Positions 3,774-13,806 of a stretch of DNA of 64,000 bases are shown piece after piece; the stretch's first letter is position 1; the number at the start of each line of letters is the position of its first letter. The DNA comes from Thermoplasmatota archaeon (lineage in GTDB: Archaea > Thermoplasmatota > Thermoplasmata > Thermoplasmatales > Thermoplasmataceae). The notes under the pieces were generated by a model. The model was given only the letters and a program-made list of their open reading frames with translations, made no database searches and was not told the origin of the DNA. The position numbers and the translations under genes were made by a program. The stretch covers positions 1 to 64,000 of the forward strand of contig JAMDBD010000034.1 in NCBI GenBank assembly GCA_023484105.1. The letters are read 5' to 3'.

Positions 3774-6161
3774 TCATATGCTGTAGTGCCTGAAGACCAT
3801 ACCCTTGACATTATCTATCAAGGCCATGGCTACAAATGTTAAAAGGAGAACCAGAAGGCTTGCATAGAGAGGTACTGGCGCGACCAGTATCCCGAATGTG
3901 GATATCGCAAGTACGACAGCGATGTCTCCTGCAGACGCAGTGATCAACCATTTTCCAGGTATGGATTTCCAGAACCTGGATCGCTCCCTCACCATGTAAA
4001 CTGTGAACTGGCCTGAAAAGACAAGCATCTCGAATATGTATGTGTGTATCTCAGGCACGCTCAGGCCAAGGAAGATTCCTATCTGCAGTATCACGAACGA
4101 TTCCAAAACCACAAGTATCGCCAGCGATATGGATGATCCCATCAATGAATTGACCCTCCATTTCTCCGGTTTTTTTGAAAATGAAACGTTATCCGTTGCT
4201 ATTGATATGGTAACAAAATCATTGGCGAATATGAGTAGAATCACATCGAAGGGCGTGGTCACGAAGAAACGGTATATGAAAAACGAAATTGTCAGGAAAA
4301 TTGCCACCTGTACAGTCTTTATGATCTTGTTCAGCGTGTAGGTGAGCATCCTCTGGTATATTTTTCTCCCGTCTTCTACAGCACTCACTATGTCTGAAAG
4401 GCCTTCATGTGTCAGTACTATGCTTGCAGAAGCCTTTGCAACGTCTGTTGCAGTGGCCACTGCTATTCCCACCTCAGCCTGCTTGAGGGCAGCTGCGTCA
4501 TTGACCCCATCTCCAGTCATGCCGGTAATATGCGATGATTTCTGGAGAGACTTCACAATATTGTATTTATCCTCCGGGAATACCTCTGCAAACGCATCAT
4601 AGCTGTCTATGGAGCTTTTATCAGCAGAGAATTCTGACATCCTGAAGACCCTGCTTCCAATTCCAACCTCTGTGGATATCTCCTGTGCAATCTGAACAGA
4701 ATCGCCTGTTATCATCTTTGTTGAAAGCCCAAGATCCTTCAGTCTTCTAACCAGCTCCTTCGAATCCTCCCGCGGAGGGTCATGCAGCGGTATAAGGCCA
4801 CAAAATTCAGGTTTCCCTTGCTCGGTTTCTGCAGATACCCCTATGGTCCTGTATCCCCTGACAGCGTAATCTCTGGCAATTTTCATCACATTTTCTGGGT
4901 CCTCAAACTTGCAGATGTTCAACAGGATCTGCGGAGCGCCCTTTGCCACACGTATCTTTTTACCGTTGAACGTCACTTCAGCTTCAGTTCTTTTTCTCGA
5001 CGGGTCGAACGGGTAGAACCTGTCGACAGAATATCCATTGGAATCTATGCCGTTTCTCCTTGCATAATCAATCACTGCCATGTCGATAGAATCCTGGCTT
5101 GCCTCATCAGATGCCAGGAGTGCATATCTGACAAGGGTTTCCCGATCGCACTGAAATGCCACAGGATCAGCAACAGTGAGCCTGTTCTGTGTGAGCGTGC
5201 CGGTCTTATCGAAACATATGGTGTCCATAGAAGCTGCATCCTCTATTGCCGTTAGGCGTGTGACCAGTGAGCCTTTCCTGGCAAGATCCAGCGCCCCGTA
5301 TGCTGAAGCCACAGTGAAGGTGGCAGGCAGGGCAACCGGTATTGACGCTATAAGAACAACCAGCGAGAATGGTATAGCATCAACCAGATCCGTTCCCGTG
5401 ATGTATGAAAATATGAGGAGAGAGGCCACCAGAATGGTGTCGATTGCCGCAAGGTATTTCACGATGTCCAGAATGAGCGTCTCAAGATGGGACTGTGATC
5501 TGGCACTCTGCACAAGCTCAGTGGTCTTTCCATAGAGCGTGCTTCCGCCGGTTGCATACACAAGCCCGGTTGCTTCTCCCCTCTTCATTATGGAACCTGA
5601 ATATATGGATTCCCCGGGTCCGCGCCTCACCTCCTTTGACTCACCGGTCAGGGCGGACTGATCGCTGAGGACCTCTCCGCTGATAATTTTGATGTCCGCG
5701 GGAACTATATCACCCATCCTGACATGTACAATGTCTCCAGGAACCAGTTCGTCTGCGCTGATGGCATTCCACGTGGAATCCCTCCTGACGCGCGCCATCA
5801 CCCTGATTTTTTTGTTGAGCATCTCAACGGCGTCCGTTGCCTTGTTTTCCTGCAGGAAGCCCACTATGCTGTTGAATATGAGCATAGCGAGAATGATATA
5901 GGTATCCAGTAGTTTCCCGAGAATATAGGTCACTGCTGCGGTTATTTCAAGCATCCAGGCGATCGGATTCCAGAACCTTTTTGCCAGGCTTACTATCCTG
6001 CTCTCCTTCCTGGCTTCTACGGCGTTTTTCCCGTACTTTGCAAGTCTTGAGGCAGCCTCCTGGCTGCTCAGCCCACTTTCAGTGCATGATAGTGCTGAAA
6101 AGATCTGCTGGATATCCATCTTTTCAAGGCTTTTCAGATCGATCTGAGCTATTATGGCCAC
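3774..6161 (-). CDS. plasma-membrane proton-pumping P-type ATPase (P3A)
   Basis: This predicted pump exports H+ at the cost of ATP. At 795 residues it has the P-type order: N-terminal cytoplasmic segment, M1-M2 (about 65-105), actuator domain with TGES at 172-175, M3-M4 with PVALP at 275-279, phosphorylation site DKTGT with Asp318, hinge TGDGVNDAA, and M5-M10 at the C-terminus. It resembles plant and fungal P3A pumps but lacks their long C-terminal regulatory tail. Such pumps are known in Thermoplasmata and suit an acidophile. Substrate assignment by homology is strong; K+ or other cations cannot be strictly excluded. Confidence 0.93.
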   Translation of the reverse strand: MAIIAQIDLKSLEKMDIQQIFSALSCTESGLSSQEAASRLAKYGKNAVEARKESRIVSLAKRFWNPIAWMLEITAAVTYILGKLLDTYIILAMLIFNSIVGFLQENKATDAVEMLNKKIRVMARVRRDSTWNAISADELVPGDIVHVRMGDIVPADIKIISGEVLSDQSALTGESKEVRRGPGESIYSGSIMKRGEATGLVYATGGSTLYGKTTELVQSARSQSHLETLILDIVKYLAAIDTILVASLLIFSYITGTDLVDAIPFSLVVLIASIPVALPATFTVASAYGALDLARKGSLVTRLTAIEDAASMDTICFDKTGTLTQNRLTVADPVAFQCDRETLVRYALLASDEASQDSIDMAVIDYARRNGIDSNGYSVDRFYPFDPSRKRTEAEVTFNGKKIRVAKGAPQILLNICKFEDPENVMKIARDYAVRGYRTIGVSAETEQGKPEFCGLIPLHDPPREDSKELVRRLKDLGLSTKMITGDSVQIAQEISTEVGIGSRVFRMSEFSADKSSIDSYDAFAEVFPEDKYNIVKSLQKSSHITGMTGDGVNDAAALKQAEVGIAVATATDVAKASASIVLTHEGLSDIVSAVEDGRKIYQRMLTYTLNKIIKTVQVAIFLTISFFIYRFFVTTPFDVILLIFANDFVTISIATDNVSFSKKPEKWRVNSLMGSSISLAILVVLESFVILQIGIFLGLSVPEIHTYIFEMLVFSGQFTVYMVRERSRFWKSIPGKWLITASAGDIAVVLAISTFGILVAPVPLYASLLVLLLTFVAMALIDNVKGMVFRHYSI

Positions 6162-6372: not shown

Positions 6373-6786
6373 ATGTCAGGAAAACTCTCTCTGATACTGT
6401 TTTCAGGCGAAATGGACAAACTGATGGCAGGATCCATAATAGCTTCCGGGGCAGTCGCAAACGAGATGAAGGTTGATATTTTTGTGACCTTCTGGGCGCT
6501 GCTGCAGGTGACGAAGGAAGGCGTGCACCAGATTTCGCTGAGTCCTGAAGCAGGTCCCCTTGCAGGTGAGGTCATGAGGGTGATGCATGAGAAGAAGATA
6601 CCGTCATGGCTCGACACAATAAGGCAGATAAGCGAGGTAGGGGACGTCACAGTCTACGGCTGTGCCATGTTTGCAGACATGATGGGCATAAAGAAGGAGG
6701 AGCTTGATCCTATAGTGAAAGACATCATCGGGGTTTCGCAGTTCATGGGCATGGCGAAGGATTCAACCATGACACTGTTTCTGTGA
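6373..6786 (+). CDS. DsrE-family sulfur carrier protein
   Basis: The 137-residue protein has the DsrE/DsrE2 fold pattern: a hydrophobic beta strand near the start, the Ala-Asn-rich helix after it ([16 protein letters not shown]) and a conserved cysteine in VYGCAMF (Cys97), where DsrE2-type proteins carry persulfide. I chose ATG 6373 because GGTGA lies 7 bases ahead of it; the TTG at 6343 has no ribosome site. It is the first gene of a five-gene operon with TusA and two SQR-like flavoproteins, so it probably passes sulfane sulfur between them. Partners are inferred from context. Confidence 0.85.
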
Positions 6787-6796
6787 GGTGAATGAA

Positions 6797-7039
6797 ATGG
6801 GAGATGAAGTAAAACCTACAAAGGTGATAGACGCAAGGGGAAGTTTCTGTCCAGGGCCTCTGATGGAGATGATCAAGGCATACAAGCAGGGGAAGATTGG
6901 AGATGTCATCTCCATCTATTCTACAGATTCCGGAACGAAGAAGGATGCCCCGGAGTGGATAAAGAAATCAGGAAATGAACTCATCGGCGTGTATGACCGG
7001 CAGGGCTATTACGAAATTGTCATGAAAAAGATCAGGTAA
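6797..7039 (+). CDS. tusA: TusA-family sulfurtransferase
   Basis: The 80 residues contain the TusA signature Cys-Pro-Gly-Pro with reactive Cys18 ([17 protein letters not shown]), the usual helix after it, and the late segment [21 protein letters not shown]. TusA proteins hand persulfide sulfur from donor to acceptor; in sulfur oxidisers they work with DsrE proteins and rhodaneses. Here DsrE lies 10 bases upstream and an SQR-like flavoprotein starts 5 bases after the stop. The ATG at 6797 follows GAGGTGA; a GTG at 6788 sits inside that ribosome site and is unlikely. Confidence 0.92.
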
Positions 7040-7044
7040 GATTT

Positions 7045-8190
7045 ATGCCGACCAATCTCAAAACAGTTGTGATCATAGGGGACGGAGCTGCAGGAACAAT
7101 AATGGCAAACAAGCTGCGCTTTCATTCAGATCCGTCTGAGATAAGGATTGTTGTGATAGGCAATTCCAGCAGGCACTATTTCAAGCCTGATGGCGTTCAC
7201 ATACCATTTGGATTCAGGGACTACAGGAACAGTGTGAAGCCCTCGGCAGCCCTTTTCAACTATGGCGTGGAATATCTCAGGGACACTGTAAGCGGGATAA
7301 ATCTTGATGACGGGTCCGTTACGACAGTCTCCGGGAAAACGATCGAATATGACTATCTCGTAATAGCAACCGGTGACAGGTTCACCACAGGGGATTTGCC
7401 TGGATATGACCAGGAGGCGTTCCATTTCTACAGCCTTGAAGGTGCACTTAAGCTGAAGGACCGGCTGAAGGATTTCAAAGGCGGAAGAATAGTGATAGGG
7501 CAGGCAAGCATACCCATACAGTGCCCTCCTGCACCTTACGAGTTCACCTTCCAGCTGGATCAGTTCCTCAGGCTGAAAGGGATAAGGGAAAGGACTGAGA
7601 TACATTATGTATATCCACTCAACAGGGTCTTCACGATCCAGAATGTGGCAGCATACATAGAGGGACTGTTCGAGGAGAAGGGGATCATAGTCCATAAGAT
7701 GTTCAACGTTGACACGATAGATTCCGGGTCGAAGAGGATCAACTCCATCGAAGGCGAGAGCCTGCCATATGACCTCCTTATACTTGTTCCGCCTCACAGG
7801 GGGCAGGAGCTTCTCACAAAAGCTGGAATGGCAGATGAAAGCGGATATGTGGATGTAGATCGATCACATCTCAACTATGGCAGCTATGATAACGTCTTCG
7901 TGGTAGGGGATGCAACCAACCTTCCCATATCAAAGGCAGGGGCTACGGCGCACTTTGAGTCGGAGTATCTGGCCAACAGGATATCAAGCGAGGTGAACGG
8001 AAACGCTTTCTTTGAGTCATACAACGGCGAGGTGGCCTGTACTACCATAACAGGCCCAAATGAAGGTATAACGCTTTTCTTCAGCTACACAAAGCCTCCA
8101 AGGGCGAATTTCCAGAGCAAGTCGGATTACTTCCTCAAGTGGACTTCCTCAGACACGTATTTTTCGGCAATGATCAGGGGAATAATGTGA
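7045..8190 (+). CDS. sulfide:quinone oxidoreductase-like flavoprotein 1
   Basis: This 381-residue FAD protein belongs to the SQR/flavocytochrome c sulfide dehydrogenase group. It shows an N-terminal dinucleotide fold (GDGAAG, 12-17), the second FAD motif VFVVGDAT (285-291) and the SQR redox cysteines Cys160 in QCPPAPYE and Cys332 in VACTTITG; the third cysteine of classic SQRs (near 128) is absent, as in several SQR types. Family members oxidise sulfide to polysulfide or sulfane sulfur and reduce quinone at the membrane. Neighbouring DsrE, TusA and DUF1641 genes support a sulfur role. Confidence 0.88.
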   Translation: MPTNLKTVVIIGDGAAGTIMANKLRFHSDPSEIRIVVIGNSSRHYFKPDGVHIPFGFRDYRNSVKPSAALFNYGVEYLRDTVSGINLDDGSVTTVSGKTIEYDYLVIATGDRFTTGDLPGYDQEAFHFYSLEGALKLKDRLKDFKGGRIVIGQASIPIQCPPAPYEFTFQLDQFLRLKGIRERTEIHYVYPLNRVFTIQNVAAYIEGLFEEKGIIVHKMFNVDTIDSGSKRINSIEGESLPYDLLILVPPHRGQELLTKAGMADESGYVDVDRSHLNYGSYDNVFVVGDATNLPISKAGATAHFESEYLANRISSEVNGNAFFESYNGEVACTTITGPNEGITLFFSYTKPPRANFQSKSDYFLKWTSSDTYFSAMIRGIM

Positions 8191-8200
8191 GGTGACATAA

Positions 8201-8671
8201 ATGGCAGAAAATAAGGAAAATGACAGATTTGAATCTTTGCTGATGGGAATCATGGACAACGCAGATGTGATAGAATCACTGCTGCCTCTTATGAAAAGGC
8301 TCAGACAGGCTGGGATTTTTGACCTGTTTTCCTCTGTGGCCAGGGACTATGTTCCCACAGACATTGAGTTTCTTGGGCACTTCTTCTCATCTAGGGAGTT
8401 CACATATGCCGCACTGAAGAGTGCAAATCTTCTTCTGAGTTTCATGTACGCCTTTTCTGATGAAAAGGTTTCTGACATGCTGAAGAATATAATGTTCAAT
8501 CTCAGAGGGGTGGTGGATCAGGCAGAATCGGTTTCCACGACTCAGGGAAAGCAGATTCCACTTGAGGTCTACAGACTTCTGCGTGATCCGGATACTAGGG
8601 CTGGGATTCTCGCCTCTCTTGGAGCCATGAAAGCCATAGGCGAAATCATAAGAAAGGGCGAGAAGGTATGA
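8201..8671 (+). CDS. DUF1641 family protein
   Basis: The 156-residue, mostly helical protein has the DUF1641 layout: an acidic N-terminus, helical repeats rich in Leu/Met and a C-terminal segment ending LGAMKAIGEIIRK. DUF1641 proteins are often encoded next to SQR-like or formate-dehydrogenase-like oxidoreductases and may anchor or cap them; their biochemical role is not established. ATG 8201 follows GAGGTGA. Lying between two SQR-like genes, it probably serves one or both of these flavoproteins. Confidence 0.8.
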   Translation: MAENKENDRFESLLMGIMDNADVIESLLPLMKRLRQAGIFDLFSSVARDYVPTDIEFLGHFFSSREFTYAALKSANLLLSFMYAFSDEKVSDMLKNIMFNLRGVVDQAESVSTTQGKQIPLEVYRLLRDPDTRAGILASLGAMKAIGEIIRKGEKV

Positions 8672-8717
8672 TCCGATCTTTCCAAACGAATATAAGGAAA
8701 CATGTGATAATAAAACA

Positions 8718-9941
8718 ATGAAGAAGATAGTCATTATCGGTGCCGGTTTCGCGGGTTTGAGGCTTCTATACAGGCTTTCAAGGGCTCTCAGGGGAGAGGC
8801 GGCAGTAACAATAGTGGATAAGTCAGAGTTCAGCATAGAGAAACCTTCTCTTCCAGAAGTTGCCTTTGCGGGAAAGGAGGTTTCCAAGGTTCGCATTCCG
8901 ATTTCAAGGGCCGCAAAGAGGAAAGGGGCAGAGTTCCTCAGGGAGGCTGTCGTACGGATAGAACCTGAAAAAAATCACGTGATAACAGAGAGCGGAAGGA
9001 AGGTGGAATATGACATTCTGGCAATAACAACCGGTGCAGTGAAGGATTACGATTCAATAAGCGGTTTCAGAAATTACGGTTTTTCCATATGCGATGATAT
9101 TGAAGCGGATCGCCTTTCCAAAAGACTCGAAAGCTTTGCCGGTGGGAACGTAGTCATAGGATCAGCCAGAACCACTTGGGATGAGAAGAGCACCAGCATA
9201 AGGCTTGATGCTCCCTGTGAAGGGCCTATCGGGGAGGTGATGTTCATGATTGACAGCTATCTCCGGGAGCGCGGTATCAGAGAAAAATCCTCAATAACTG
9301 TATTCACTCCCGGGAAGGTTTTCTTCGACGACGTTGGAGAAAGCATTCACCAGGAGCTTGCACCGATGATCAAGGATCACGGAATATCTGTGCTGAATGA
9401 GAAGGTGATCGACAGTATTTCCAAAGACCATGTGCATTTTGCGGATGGGACATCCATAAGGAGCGATCTTTCTATAATAATACCTCCATATAGAGGGCCA
9501 GATGTGATCATCAACTCAGAACTTGGGGATAGCAGGGGATTCATAAAAACGGACAGGAATATGAGGCATGGCAGATTCCCTAATATTTTTGTGGCCGGTG
9601 ATGTGAATGCAGACTCAATGCCAAAGCTCGGGCACATCGCCATAATGCAGGCGGATGTAGCTGCTGCAGCCATAGAAAGAGAGGTCACCGGAAAGGGAAA
9701 TGTACCAGCTCCGTCGCCGGAGATATTCTGCATCATGAACCGCGGTGATTCCGGCGCAACTGTGATACTCTCAGATATTCTATATGGAGGAAAAAGGGAT
9801 ATCGCGTACAGCGGGAAGCTTGCATCCACGTTCAAGTGGGGTTTTGACTCATATTATTTCTACACGCACGGACATATGCCTCCTGAAGCCCTGCAGGAGC
9901 CGGTTGAATTCTTCATAAAACTGATGAGGACTAACCGGTAA
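8718..9941 (+). CDS. sulfide:quinone oxidoreductase-like flavoprotein 2
   Basis: This is a second 407-residue FAD protein with GAGFAG at 8-13, a second FAD motif FVAGDVN and two cysteines at SQR-like positions: Cys167 (APCEGPIGE) and Cys338 (IFCIMN). Its first cysteine motif differs from the Cys-Pro-Pro-Ala-Pro-Tyr-Glu of the neighbour, so it is a divergent paralogue and may use another sulfur substrate or acceptor. It closes the sulfur operon 46 bases after DUF1641. A NADH dehydrogenase-like function remains possible. Confidence 0.82.
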   Translation: MKKIVIIGAGFAGLRLLYRLSRALRGEAAVTIVDKSEFSIEKPSLPEVAFAGKEVSKVRIPISRAAKRKGAEFLREAVVRIEPEKNHVITESGRKVEYDILAITTGAVKDYDSISGFRNYGFSICDDIEADRLSKRLESFAGGNVVIGSARTTWDEKSTSIRLDAPCEGPIGEVMFMIDSYLRERGIREKSSITVFTPGKVFFDDVGESIHQELAPMIKDHGISVLNEKVIDSISKDHVHFADGTSIRSDLSIIIPPYRGPDVIINSELGDSRGFIKTDRNMRHGRFPNIFVAGDVNADSMPKLGHIAIMQADVAAAAIEREVTGKGNVPAPSPEIFCIMNRGDSGATVILSDILYGGKRDIAYSGKLASTFKWGFDSYYFYTHGHMPPEALQEPVEFFIKLMRTNR

Positions 9942-12098: not shown

Positions 12099-12752
12099 AT
12101 GAAACTGAGCAACGAAAAGTTAACTTATGCAATTCTCATAGTAATCATACTGGTTGGAGGTACATCGGTGGGTCTCCTTGCTGGAAACGTCATAGAGCAC
12201 GGGGAAAGTCCAACAAGCAGCACACAGAGCGTTTATTCTCTGACGCTCATCGTACAGCACCACATCTTCTTCAACAGTAGCGTTGGATACCAGCCTGCGT
12301 TTTTTGTCCTTCAGAATGGGACTCTGGAAAACTCTTCAATGATCTATGTACCGGCTCATACTTTGATAGACCTGACAATAGTATGTTACGATAACGGACT
12401 TTCACCACTTGAGTCAGCGCAGTATGCCAATGTGAGCGGAACCGTTGGCGGTATTCAGTATGTTTTTAACAGCACGATTCCTGTTAACATGGGCCTTAAC
12501 AAGACAATATCCACATATTTCCAAGTTGTGAAGAGTGAAAACGCATCAAACATAGCGCACACGTTCACAGTACCACAGTTGAAACTCAACATACCACTTG
12601 AGCCAATATCCACCACATTCGCCCAGTTCTACGCCAACACAACCGGATCTTTCATGTGGCAGTGTTTCGCTGAATGCGGTTCAGGTCCCTACGGTACTGC
12701 CGGGGCTATGGCTACCCCTGGATGGATGACCGGCACACTTGTTGTTTACTGA
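12099..12752 (+). CDS. membrane-anchored cupredoxin with a CuA-like but incomplete copper site
   Basis: The 217-residue protein has one N-terminal helix (about 9-29) and an extracytoplasmic domain with many Asn-X-Ser/Thr sites. Its C-terminal part looks like the copper domain of cytochrome oxidase subunit II: His154 (AHTF), a Cys-X3-Cys pair Cys189/Cys193 (WQCFAECGSG) and methionines at 204 and 210. The second CuA histidine, expected four residues after the second Cys, is replaced (Pro197). It may bind a single copper or be a modified electron carrier. No oxidase subunit I is nearby; the partner gene starts 4 bases after the stop. Confidence 0.65.
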   Translation: MKLSNEKLTYAILIVIILVGGTSVGLLAGNVIEHGESPTSSTQSVYSLTLIVQHHIFFNSSVGYQPAFFVLQNGTLENSSMIYVPAHTLIDLTIVCYDNGLSPLESAQYANVSGTVGGIQYVFNSTIPVNMGLNKTISTYFQVVKSENASNIAHTFTVPQLKLNIPLEPISTTFAQFYANTTGSFMWQCFAECGSGPYGTAGAMATPGWMTGTLVVY

Positions 12753-12756
12753 TGGC

Positions 12757-13806
12757 ATGTCAAATATCCCATCATTTATTTTATTAAGATTTTATGAAAT
12801 TTCACTGATCTTTATCATAATCATAATTGTTCTGGTTCTAAGTTCGCTTTTGTTTCTCGGGAAGAATGCCCGTGAACACCCGCATGTTAAGGCGCTGCGC
12901 GTTATGTTTGGCTTCCTGTGGTTACTGGACGGTTTGTTGCAGTTGCAGCCGCTGATGTCCGTAGGATTTGCTGAAGAAACTATCAATCCTGGCCTTATAA
13001 TGGGAACATATCAGCCATGGCTTTCCTCTGTAATAAAATTCTTCGTATATATCTGGGATCTGCACCCAATCACTTACGATGCTCTTGCAGCTGCAATACA
13101 GATATTCATAGGTTCTTCCCTGATTATTGGGCCCAGAGGTTTCCTCTACAGGGCAGGTCTCTATATCAGCATACCATGGTCAGTTCTGATATGGGTAGTT
13201 GGAGAGGGGTTGGGTAACTCTTTTTCAGGAGGTGCTTCCTGGATAATCGGTTCTCCCGGTTCAGTGCTTGTATATCTGTTTGCGACCTTCATACTGATAA
13301 TGTATATTCGCAGGGAAGATTTCAACATGCGGGCATATGTAAGATATGCCTTTGCTGCAATGTTCGCGGTTGCTTTCATATGGCAGGTTTTGCCGCAGAA
13401 CGGATACTGGAACGGGATAAACCTGTCAACAAACACTCTTTTTATGGCATTTACAAAACAGCCGCATTTTCTTTCTATCATGACATTTGATGTTGCTATG
13501 GCTCTTGCTGCGAATCCGTTATTATACAATTCACTGATAGCAGTATCGCTTGTGGTGGCTTTTCTTCTATGGGCATTGATTCCTGGGCGGATAGCCGCTT
13601 CTTATACAATTGCCATCTCCGTTGTTACATGGATACTGTTTCTAGATCTTGGGGAAATATTCAGCGGATACAGCACTGATCCAAACACGCCAATACCAGT
13701 GATCGCCATTTGCATATCTTATATTATGATGCTTTACGAGCGATTCTCAAACAGTGCAGTCGATGGAAGCGCCTCAAAAAATTATGTTCCAGAGGCAAGA
13801 ATATAG
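12757..13806 (+). CDS. polytopic membrane protein of unknown function, paired with the cupredoxin
   Basis: This protein of about 349 residues has roughly eight to nine membrane segments. Conserved-looking motifs are FLWLLDGLLQLQPLM after the first helix and VVGEGLGNSFSGGASWIIGS in a loop; from memory, similar motifs occur in uncharacterised actinobacterial membrane proteins. The ATG at 12757 directly follows the cupredoxin stop; a TTG at 12739 would overlap it. Co-transcription suggests that the two proteins form a copper-dependent membrane unit, but the reaction is unknown. Confidence 0.7.
   Translation: MSNIPSFILLRFYEISLIFIIIIIVLVLSSLLFLGKNAREHPHVKALRVMFGFLWLLDGLLQLQPLMSVGFAEETINPGLIMGTYQPWLSSVIKFFVYIWDLHPITYDALAAAIQIFIGSSLIIGPRGFLYRAGLYISIPWSVLIWVVGEGLGNSFSGGASWIIGSPGSVLVYLFATFILIMYIRREDFNMRAYVRYAFAAMFAVAFIWQVLPQNGYWNGINLSTNTLFMAFTKQPHFLSIMTFDVAMALAANPLLYNSLIAVSLVVAFLLWALIPGRIAASYTIAISVVTWILFLDLGEIFSGYSTDPNTPIPVIAICISYIMMLYERFSNSAVDGSASKNYVPEARI

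Follow-up and report, generated by a model that had tools for sequence, protein, structure and literature searches.

Does the run of five genes at positions 6373–9941 of contig JAMDBD010000034.1, from an acidophilic Thermoplasmatota archaeon (assembly GCA_023484105.1), form one sulfur-transfer operon, and what might each gene contribute to it? In the 64,000-nucleotide (nt) stretch analyzed here (the window), five open reading frames (ORFs) lie tightly packed on one strand and encode, in order, a DsrE-like protein, TusA, a sulfide:quinone oxidoreductase (SQR)-like flavoprotein (SQR1), a DUF1641 protein and a second SQR (SQR2). All five ORFs are present, as a first-pass annotation of the locus had proposed, and each matches a Pfam family. 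That annotation also read the five genes as a single operon, and here our analysis departs from it: the true unit is dsrE-tusA-sqr1-DUF1641 (6373–8671), four genes rather than five, a form of the DsrE-TusA-SQR module that in Thermoplasmata is extended by a ForE-like subunit and is adjoined here by an SQR of a different type.

The boundary is drawn by the gene order of relatives. We searched 250 genomes of the class Thermoplasmata, then wider regions, and scanned GTDB contigs with an SQR1 alignment. DsrE-TusA-SQR1-DUF1641, in the same order and on the same strand, occurs in 15 intact clusters of the family besides that of the window, and one further family cluster has the same genes with a split SQR frame. 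Counted free of duplicates over both collections, 30 Thermoplasmata SQR1 sequences, one of them truncated, have all three partners. The four-gene order recurs; the five-gene order was seen in no other genome examined. The GTDB scan yielded 80 named loci, 72 with room upstream, and DsrE and TusA lie directly upstream of the SQR relative on the same strand in 47 of these 72, a set that spans Thermoplasmata, Nitrososphaeria, Heimdallarchaeota, Methanodesulfokora, Chloroflexota, Actinomycetota, Bacillota and Dormibacterota, among others. In three more loci (two Geothermarchaeota, one Nitrososphaeria) DsrE/TusA follow the SQR in opposite orientation. Because the loci were picked by SQR peptide patterns and not by their neighbors, this linkage is not circular. 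The DsrE-TusA-SQR module is thus widespread, and SQRs beside DsrE/TusA were already known. The ORFs of the window and the family searches confirm that no rhodanese or Hdr gene adjoins the cluster; this had been taken to make the layout unusual, which it is not, because the core is widespread and an H2S-induced operon of this kind has been published from Methylacidiphilum (PMC10205796). The family also holds a second, divergent DsrE-TusA-SQR module without DUF1641 (L195, L196, L197 and L198, in G067, G162, G174 and G190); in L196 TusA and SQR are separated by a 481-aa protein, and in L198 a TusA search places TusA between DsrE and SQR, though the ORF list has no TusA frame there.

SQR1 belongs to PF07992 (Pyr_redox_2; 1.1e-18), and its best phmmer match in the PDB is human SQR (8dhk, 3.6e-41). 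An AlphaFold2 model built without FAD (pLDDT 91.5) has the two-dinucleotide-binding fold of the SQR/NDH-2 class and superimposes by Foldseek on human SQR with coenzyme Q (6oi6) at a TM-score of 0.90. The phmmer alignment places Cys160 and Cys332 on the human SQR cysteines, identifying them as the redox-active pair. From these data we infer that SQR1 is a sulfide:quinone oxidoreductase, with sulfide as substrate and quinone as acceptor. Its best NCBIfam match is NF049943 (type III SQR, selenoprotein subtype), and at 332 bits against a cut-off of 525 this makes type III status likely rather than established.

Retention of the cysteines follows the company that the SQR keeps. Both are present in all 60 scorable SQRs near DsrE and TusA and in 9/9 near TusA alone; of 26 SQRs accompanied only by DUF1641, both are kept in 17 and both are lost in nine. 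One SQR with DUF1641 and TusA, in the ASS_A1 genome (CP009479.1; L052:7833-9844 and L129), belongs to a second TusA-SQR-DUF1641 cluster without DsrE and carries Tyr and Trp at the two cysteine positions. The cross-phylum neighborhoods and the 60/60 retention strongly support the functional link between SQR flavoprotein and DsrE/TusA that had been suggested for this locus. SQR-like flavoproteins that are paired with DUF1641 only and lack both cysteines (L062, L063, L066, L067, L071, L137, L138, L140, L148 and L151, some of which are duplicates of one sequence) probably do not carry out sulfide chemistry of the usual kind.

Profiles built from relatives of the DUF1641 protein match ForE1/YjgD (PDB 8rqz) at 1.1e-7 and 2.7e-8, with no other PDB match below 0.02, which makes it a sequence homolog of ForE1. 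Bacillus subtilis ForCE1 depends on ForE1 for formate:menadione activity and menaquinone reduction, and most likely for binding menaquinone as well (PMC8808070); a review assigns ForE1 a role in passing electrons to the quinone pool (PMC13397495). By analogy, the best interpretation is that the DUF1641 protein may couple SQR1 to quinone. Strong-scoring DUF1641 proteins were seen only in Thermoplasmata among the GTDB loci and class genomes. We considered whether DUF1641 compensates for a lost C-terminal membrane helix of the SQR and rejected the idea: SQR1 retains a helix at 359–378, and relatives without DUF1641 are similar in length, with a different C-terminal sequence.

The DsrE-like protein matches PF13686 (DsrE/DsrF-like) at 1.9e-21 and PDB 2qs7 at 1.8e-25, an entry deposited as an uncharacterized protein that corresponds to SSO1126 (PMC4175335); its cysteine is invariant in 18 aligned sequences. 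With 35.9 bits against a cut-off of 210 for the DsrE2 equivalog NF047629, it is DsrE-like and not DsrE2 by that model. TusA matches PF01206 (7.9e-20, 70.9 bits), falls below the cut-off of the equivalog NF001423 (33.6 bits against 78), and has a CPGP motif invariant in 17 aligned sequences. Its start is most likely the ATG at 6797, because a GAGGTGA site precedes this codon, and this start gives Cys18. These are the only DsrE (PF13686) and TusA genes found in the organism's own genome.

We propose that the four genes form a sulfide-oxidation and sulfur-trafficking operon in which SQR1 passes electrons to quinone via DUF1641 and sulfur to TusA/DsrE, a reading that we regard as probable but far from secure. 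SQR1 would oxidize H2S by means of FAD and the Cys160/Cys332 pair, with the sulfane sulfur held on cysteine; DUF1641 would dock on SQR1 and help it to reach or reduce membrane quinone; TusA and DsrE, through Cys18 and Cys97, would replace a small thiol in accepting or buffering the sulfane sulfur and would deliver it to cytoplasmic users, for example thiolation and Fe-S pathways. The direction of flow, from SQR1 to the carriers, is presumed.

Several observations weigh against this proposal. The DUF1641 assignment is barely above the Pfam cut-off (PF07849, 21.6 bits against 21), and a Foldseek search with its AlphaFold2 model (pLDDT 81.6, pTM 0.43) gave no significant match and did not recover ForE1; the top match, Huc hydrogenase chain 7uus_Q, was discarded at E 1.7. 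Many SQR relatives with DsrE-TusA are without DUF1641, which is thus dispensable for the core. One of the two GTDB search patterns contains Cys160 and so biases the cysteine counts, and part of the retention contrast may be selection; the loci of the class-genome search are free of this pattern. Finally, Methylacidiphilum converts sulfide mostly to elemental sulfur (S0), at least 80%, which leaves room for a main sulfur acceptor other than the carriers (PMC10205796), and DsrE3A and TusA of Metallosphaera cuprina react with tetrathionate only, not with sulfide, polysulfide or GSSH (PMC4175335). A bolder version would make TusA or DsrE the obligate sulfur acceptor of SQR1, taking persulfide directly from its active-site cysteine where a small thiol would otherwise do so, and would make DUF1641 a quinone-docking subunit of general use to unrelated dehydrogenases (ForCE, NDH-2, SQR); we consider this version less likely than not.

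The observations on Methylacidiphilum and Metallosphaera also lend weight to ordinary detoxification, in which SQR1 would release polysulfide or S0 and DsrE/TusA, not themselves direct acceptors, would only mop up or buffer reactive sulfane sulfur: Methylacidiphilum expresses these three gene families while S0 is its main product, and the isolated Metallosphaera carriers are inert toward polysulfide and GSSH. The close and very broad linkage of DsrE-TusA to this SQR class, with cysteine retention tied to it, suggests more than incidental buffering, and we consider detoxification rather unlikely.

What, then, of SQR2? It too belongs to PF07992 (1.6e-23), and its closest PDB structure is Acidianus ambivalens SQR (3h8i/3h8l, 4e-59), on whose cysteines Cys125, Cys167 and Cys338 align. 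The cysteines named in the first-pass annotation (DsrE Cys97, TusA Cys18 counted from the ATG, SQR1 Cys160/Cys332, SQR2 Cys167/Cys338) were correct, with Cys125, the third in SQR2, overlooked. A five-gene relay had been envisaged, in which both SQRs would serve the carriers, with sulfur loaded by one of them and a carrier or polysulfide acted on by the other, and the co-directional arrangement, with SQR2 starting 46 nt past DUF1641, speaks for it. The gaps among the first four genes are 1, 5 and 10 nt (ORFs as listed), and the region in front of SQR2 has a TATA-like ATATAA about 25 nt before the ATG but lacks a Shine-Dalgarno site, which would fit a leaderless transcript of its own. Several SQR2 orthologs likewise have an AT-rich upstream region lacking a Shine-Dalgarno site; a sigma-70 promoter scan was uninformative for an archaeon. 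No relative examined, including two of the same genus, has SQR2 in this position. Orthologs above 50% identity occur patchily, in six of the class genomes searched besides the window, and they lie apart from the cluster where both are present, about 300 kb away on the same chromosome in G206 (72% identity) and on a different contig in G128. Their neighbors include cytochrome bd subunit-like genes in L188 (by eye), cytochrome bd by Pfam in L189 (subunit II under its cut-off) and Rieske/cytochrome b in L186, so that the suggested division of labor between two SQRs finds no support. On the neighborhoods of relatives and the SQR2 upstream sequence we reject a five-gene unit, and the relay itself is very improbable. 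SQR2 is probably an independent neighbor enzyme that has spread laterally, which fits its patchy occurrence and a 71% identical ortholog in another family (G218).

Where might sulfur from SQR1 go? Searches of the organism's own genome (95% complete) found no SOR and no separate HdrB-like or sHdr set (hdrC1B1A-hyp-hdrC2B2; lbpA was not searched), so that we set both aside as downstream oxidizers and complete sulfur oxidation by SOR/sHdr is unlikely. The only CCG-domain protein found is a TfrB/GlpC-like protein of 674 aa adjoined by ETF subunit-like genes (by eye). Rhodanese domains occur in ThiI and, on other contigs, in two proteins made up of this single domain. The rhodanese frame of 490 aa on contig 24, at first a candidate persulfide dioxygenase-rhodanese fusion, proved to be ThiI with a rhodanese domain. 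A second SQR-DUF1641 pair with its cysteines kept and no carriers nearby is found on contig 9 (L033:8685-10302). Reverse flow, in which SQR1 would take electrons from quinol or some other donor, reduce the sulfane sulfur borne by TusA/DsrE and free sulfide for persulfide disposal, draws on the reversibility in principle of flavoprotein chemistry and on the lack of SOR and sHdr genes just described, but structurally SQR1 comes closest to human SQR with coenzyme Q, and H2S induces the Methylacidiphilum operon under aerobic oxidation; we give reverse flow hardly any credence.

Table 1. Features of the DsrE-TusA-SQR1-DUF1641 unit and the adjoining SQR2 gene (positions in the window).
Feature	Position	Strand	Family, structure or basis
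DsrE-like sulfur carrier, 137 aa, single Cys97	6373..6786	+	PF13686; PDB 2qs7
TusA, CPGP motif, Cys18	6797..7039 (ORF opens at GTG 6788)	+	PF01206
SQR1, two-cysteine SQR-like flavoprotein, 381 aa, Cys160/Cys332	7045..8190	+	PF07992; 8dhk; 6oi6
DUF1641 protein, 156 aa, all-helical, cysteine-free, ForE1 homolog	8201..8671	+	PF07849; PDB 8rqz
TATA-like ATATAA, ~25 nt 5' of SQR2 ATG	8690..8695	+	sequence inference
SQR2, Acidianus-type SQR, 407 aa, Cys125/167/338	8718..9941	+	PDB 3h8i/3h8l; probably outside unit

The flanks of the unit differ among near relatives. Genomes of the same genus, and some near ones, have a divergent formate-tetrahydrofolate ligase gene directly upstream of the operon; in the window a proton-efflux P-type ATPase (3774-6161; TIGR01647, above cut-off) stands between. 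Downstream, a YceI-like gene (tested in L035) follows the operon in near relatives (L035:10444-11447, L036, L105 and L110), as does an HxlR-type regulator-like gene (by eye); SQR2 and a hydrolase occupy their place in the window. Farther on, at 12099-13806, a protein weakly resembling cytochrome oxidase subunit II is followed by a membrane protein with no Pfam or NCBIfam family match.

If correct, the proposal would identify the cytoplasmic sulfur acceptor for a large and little-studied class of archaeal and bacterial SQRs, and it would provide DUF1641, so far a domain of unknown function, with a testable quinone-coupling role beyond formate dehydrogenase. Acidianus ambivalens SQR (3h8l), with its three cysteines, is the closest solved relative of SQR2 and bears on that enzyme, not on the four-gene unit. 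For the carriers, Metallosphaera cuprina offers a partial parallel: its DsrE and TusA homologs form a complex and exchange sulfur groups, genes for one DsrE group are reported to lie downstream of SQR, and in its dsrE3A-dsrE2B-tusA set DsrE and TusA are adjacent and TusA has the same Cys18 (PMC4175335). That set is tied to an Hdr-like complex and dihydrolipoamide dehydrogenase rather than to an SQR, its carriers bear thiosulfonate groups derived from tetrathionate, and its DsrE3A has two cysteines, unlike the DsrE of the window. Compared by description, a close known system is operon MFUM_v2_0219-0221 of Methylacidiphilum fumariolicum SolV (type III SQR, TusA, DsrE2; up about 1.7-fold with H2S; PMC10205796), which unites the same three gene families but differs in its bacterial host, in having no DUF1641 mentioned and in a product that is mostly S0. 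For DUF1641 the parallels come from Bacillus. ForCE1 of B. subtilis likewise places a DUF1641 subunit (ForE1, YjgD) beside a redox enzyme, there a molybdenum formate dehydrogenase and not an SQR. YjlC, annotated as DUF1641 in B. amyloliquefaciens (PMC12020853), is modeled in PDB 9a63 with the flavoprotein YjlD, whose fold is of the NDH-2 class; that pair has no sulfur carriers and its flavoprotein is an NADH dehydrogenase.

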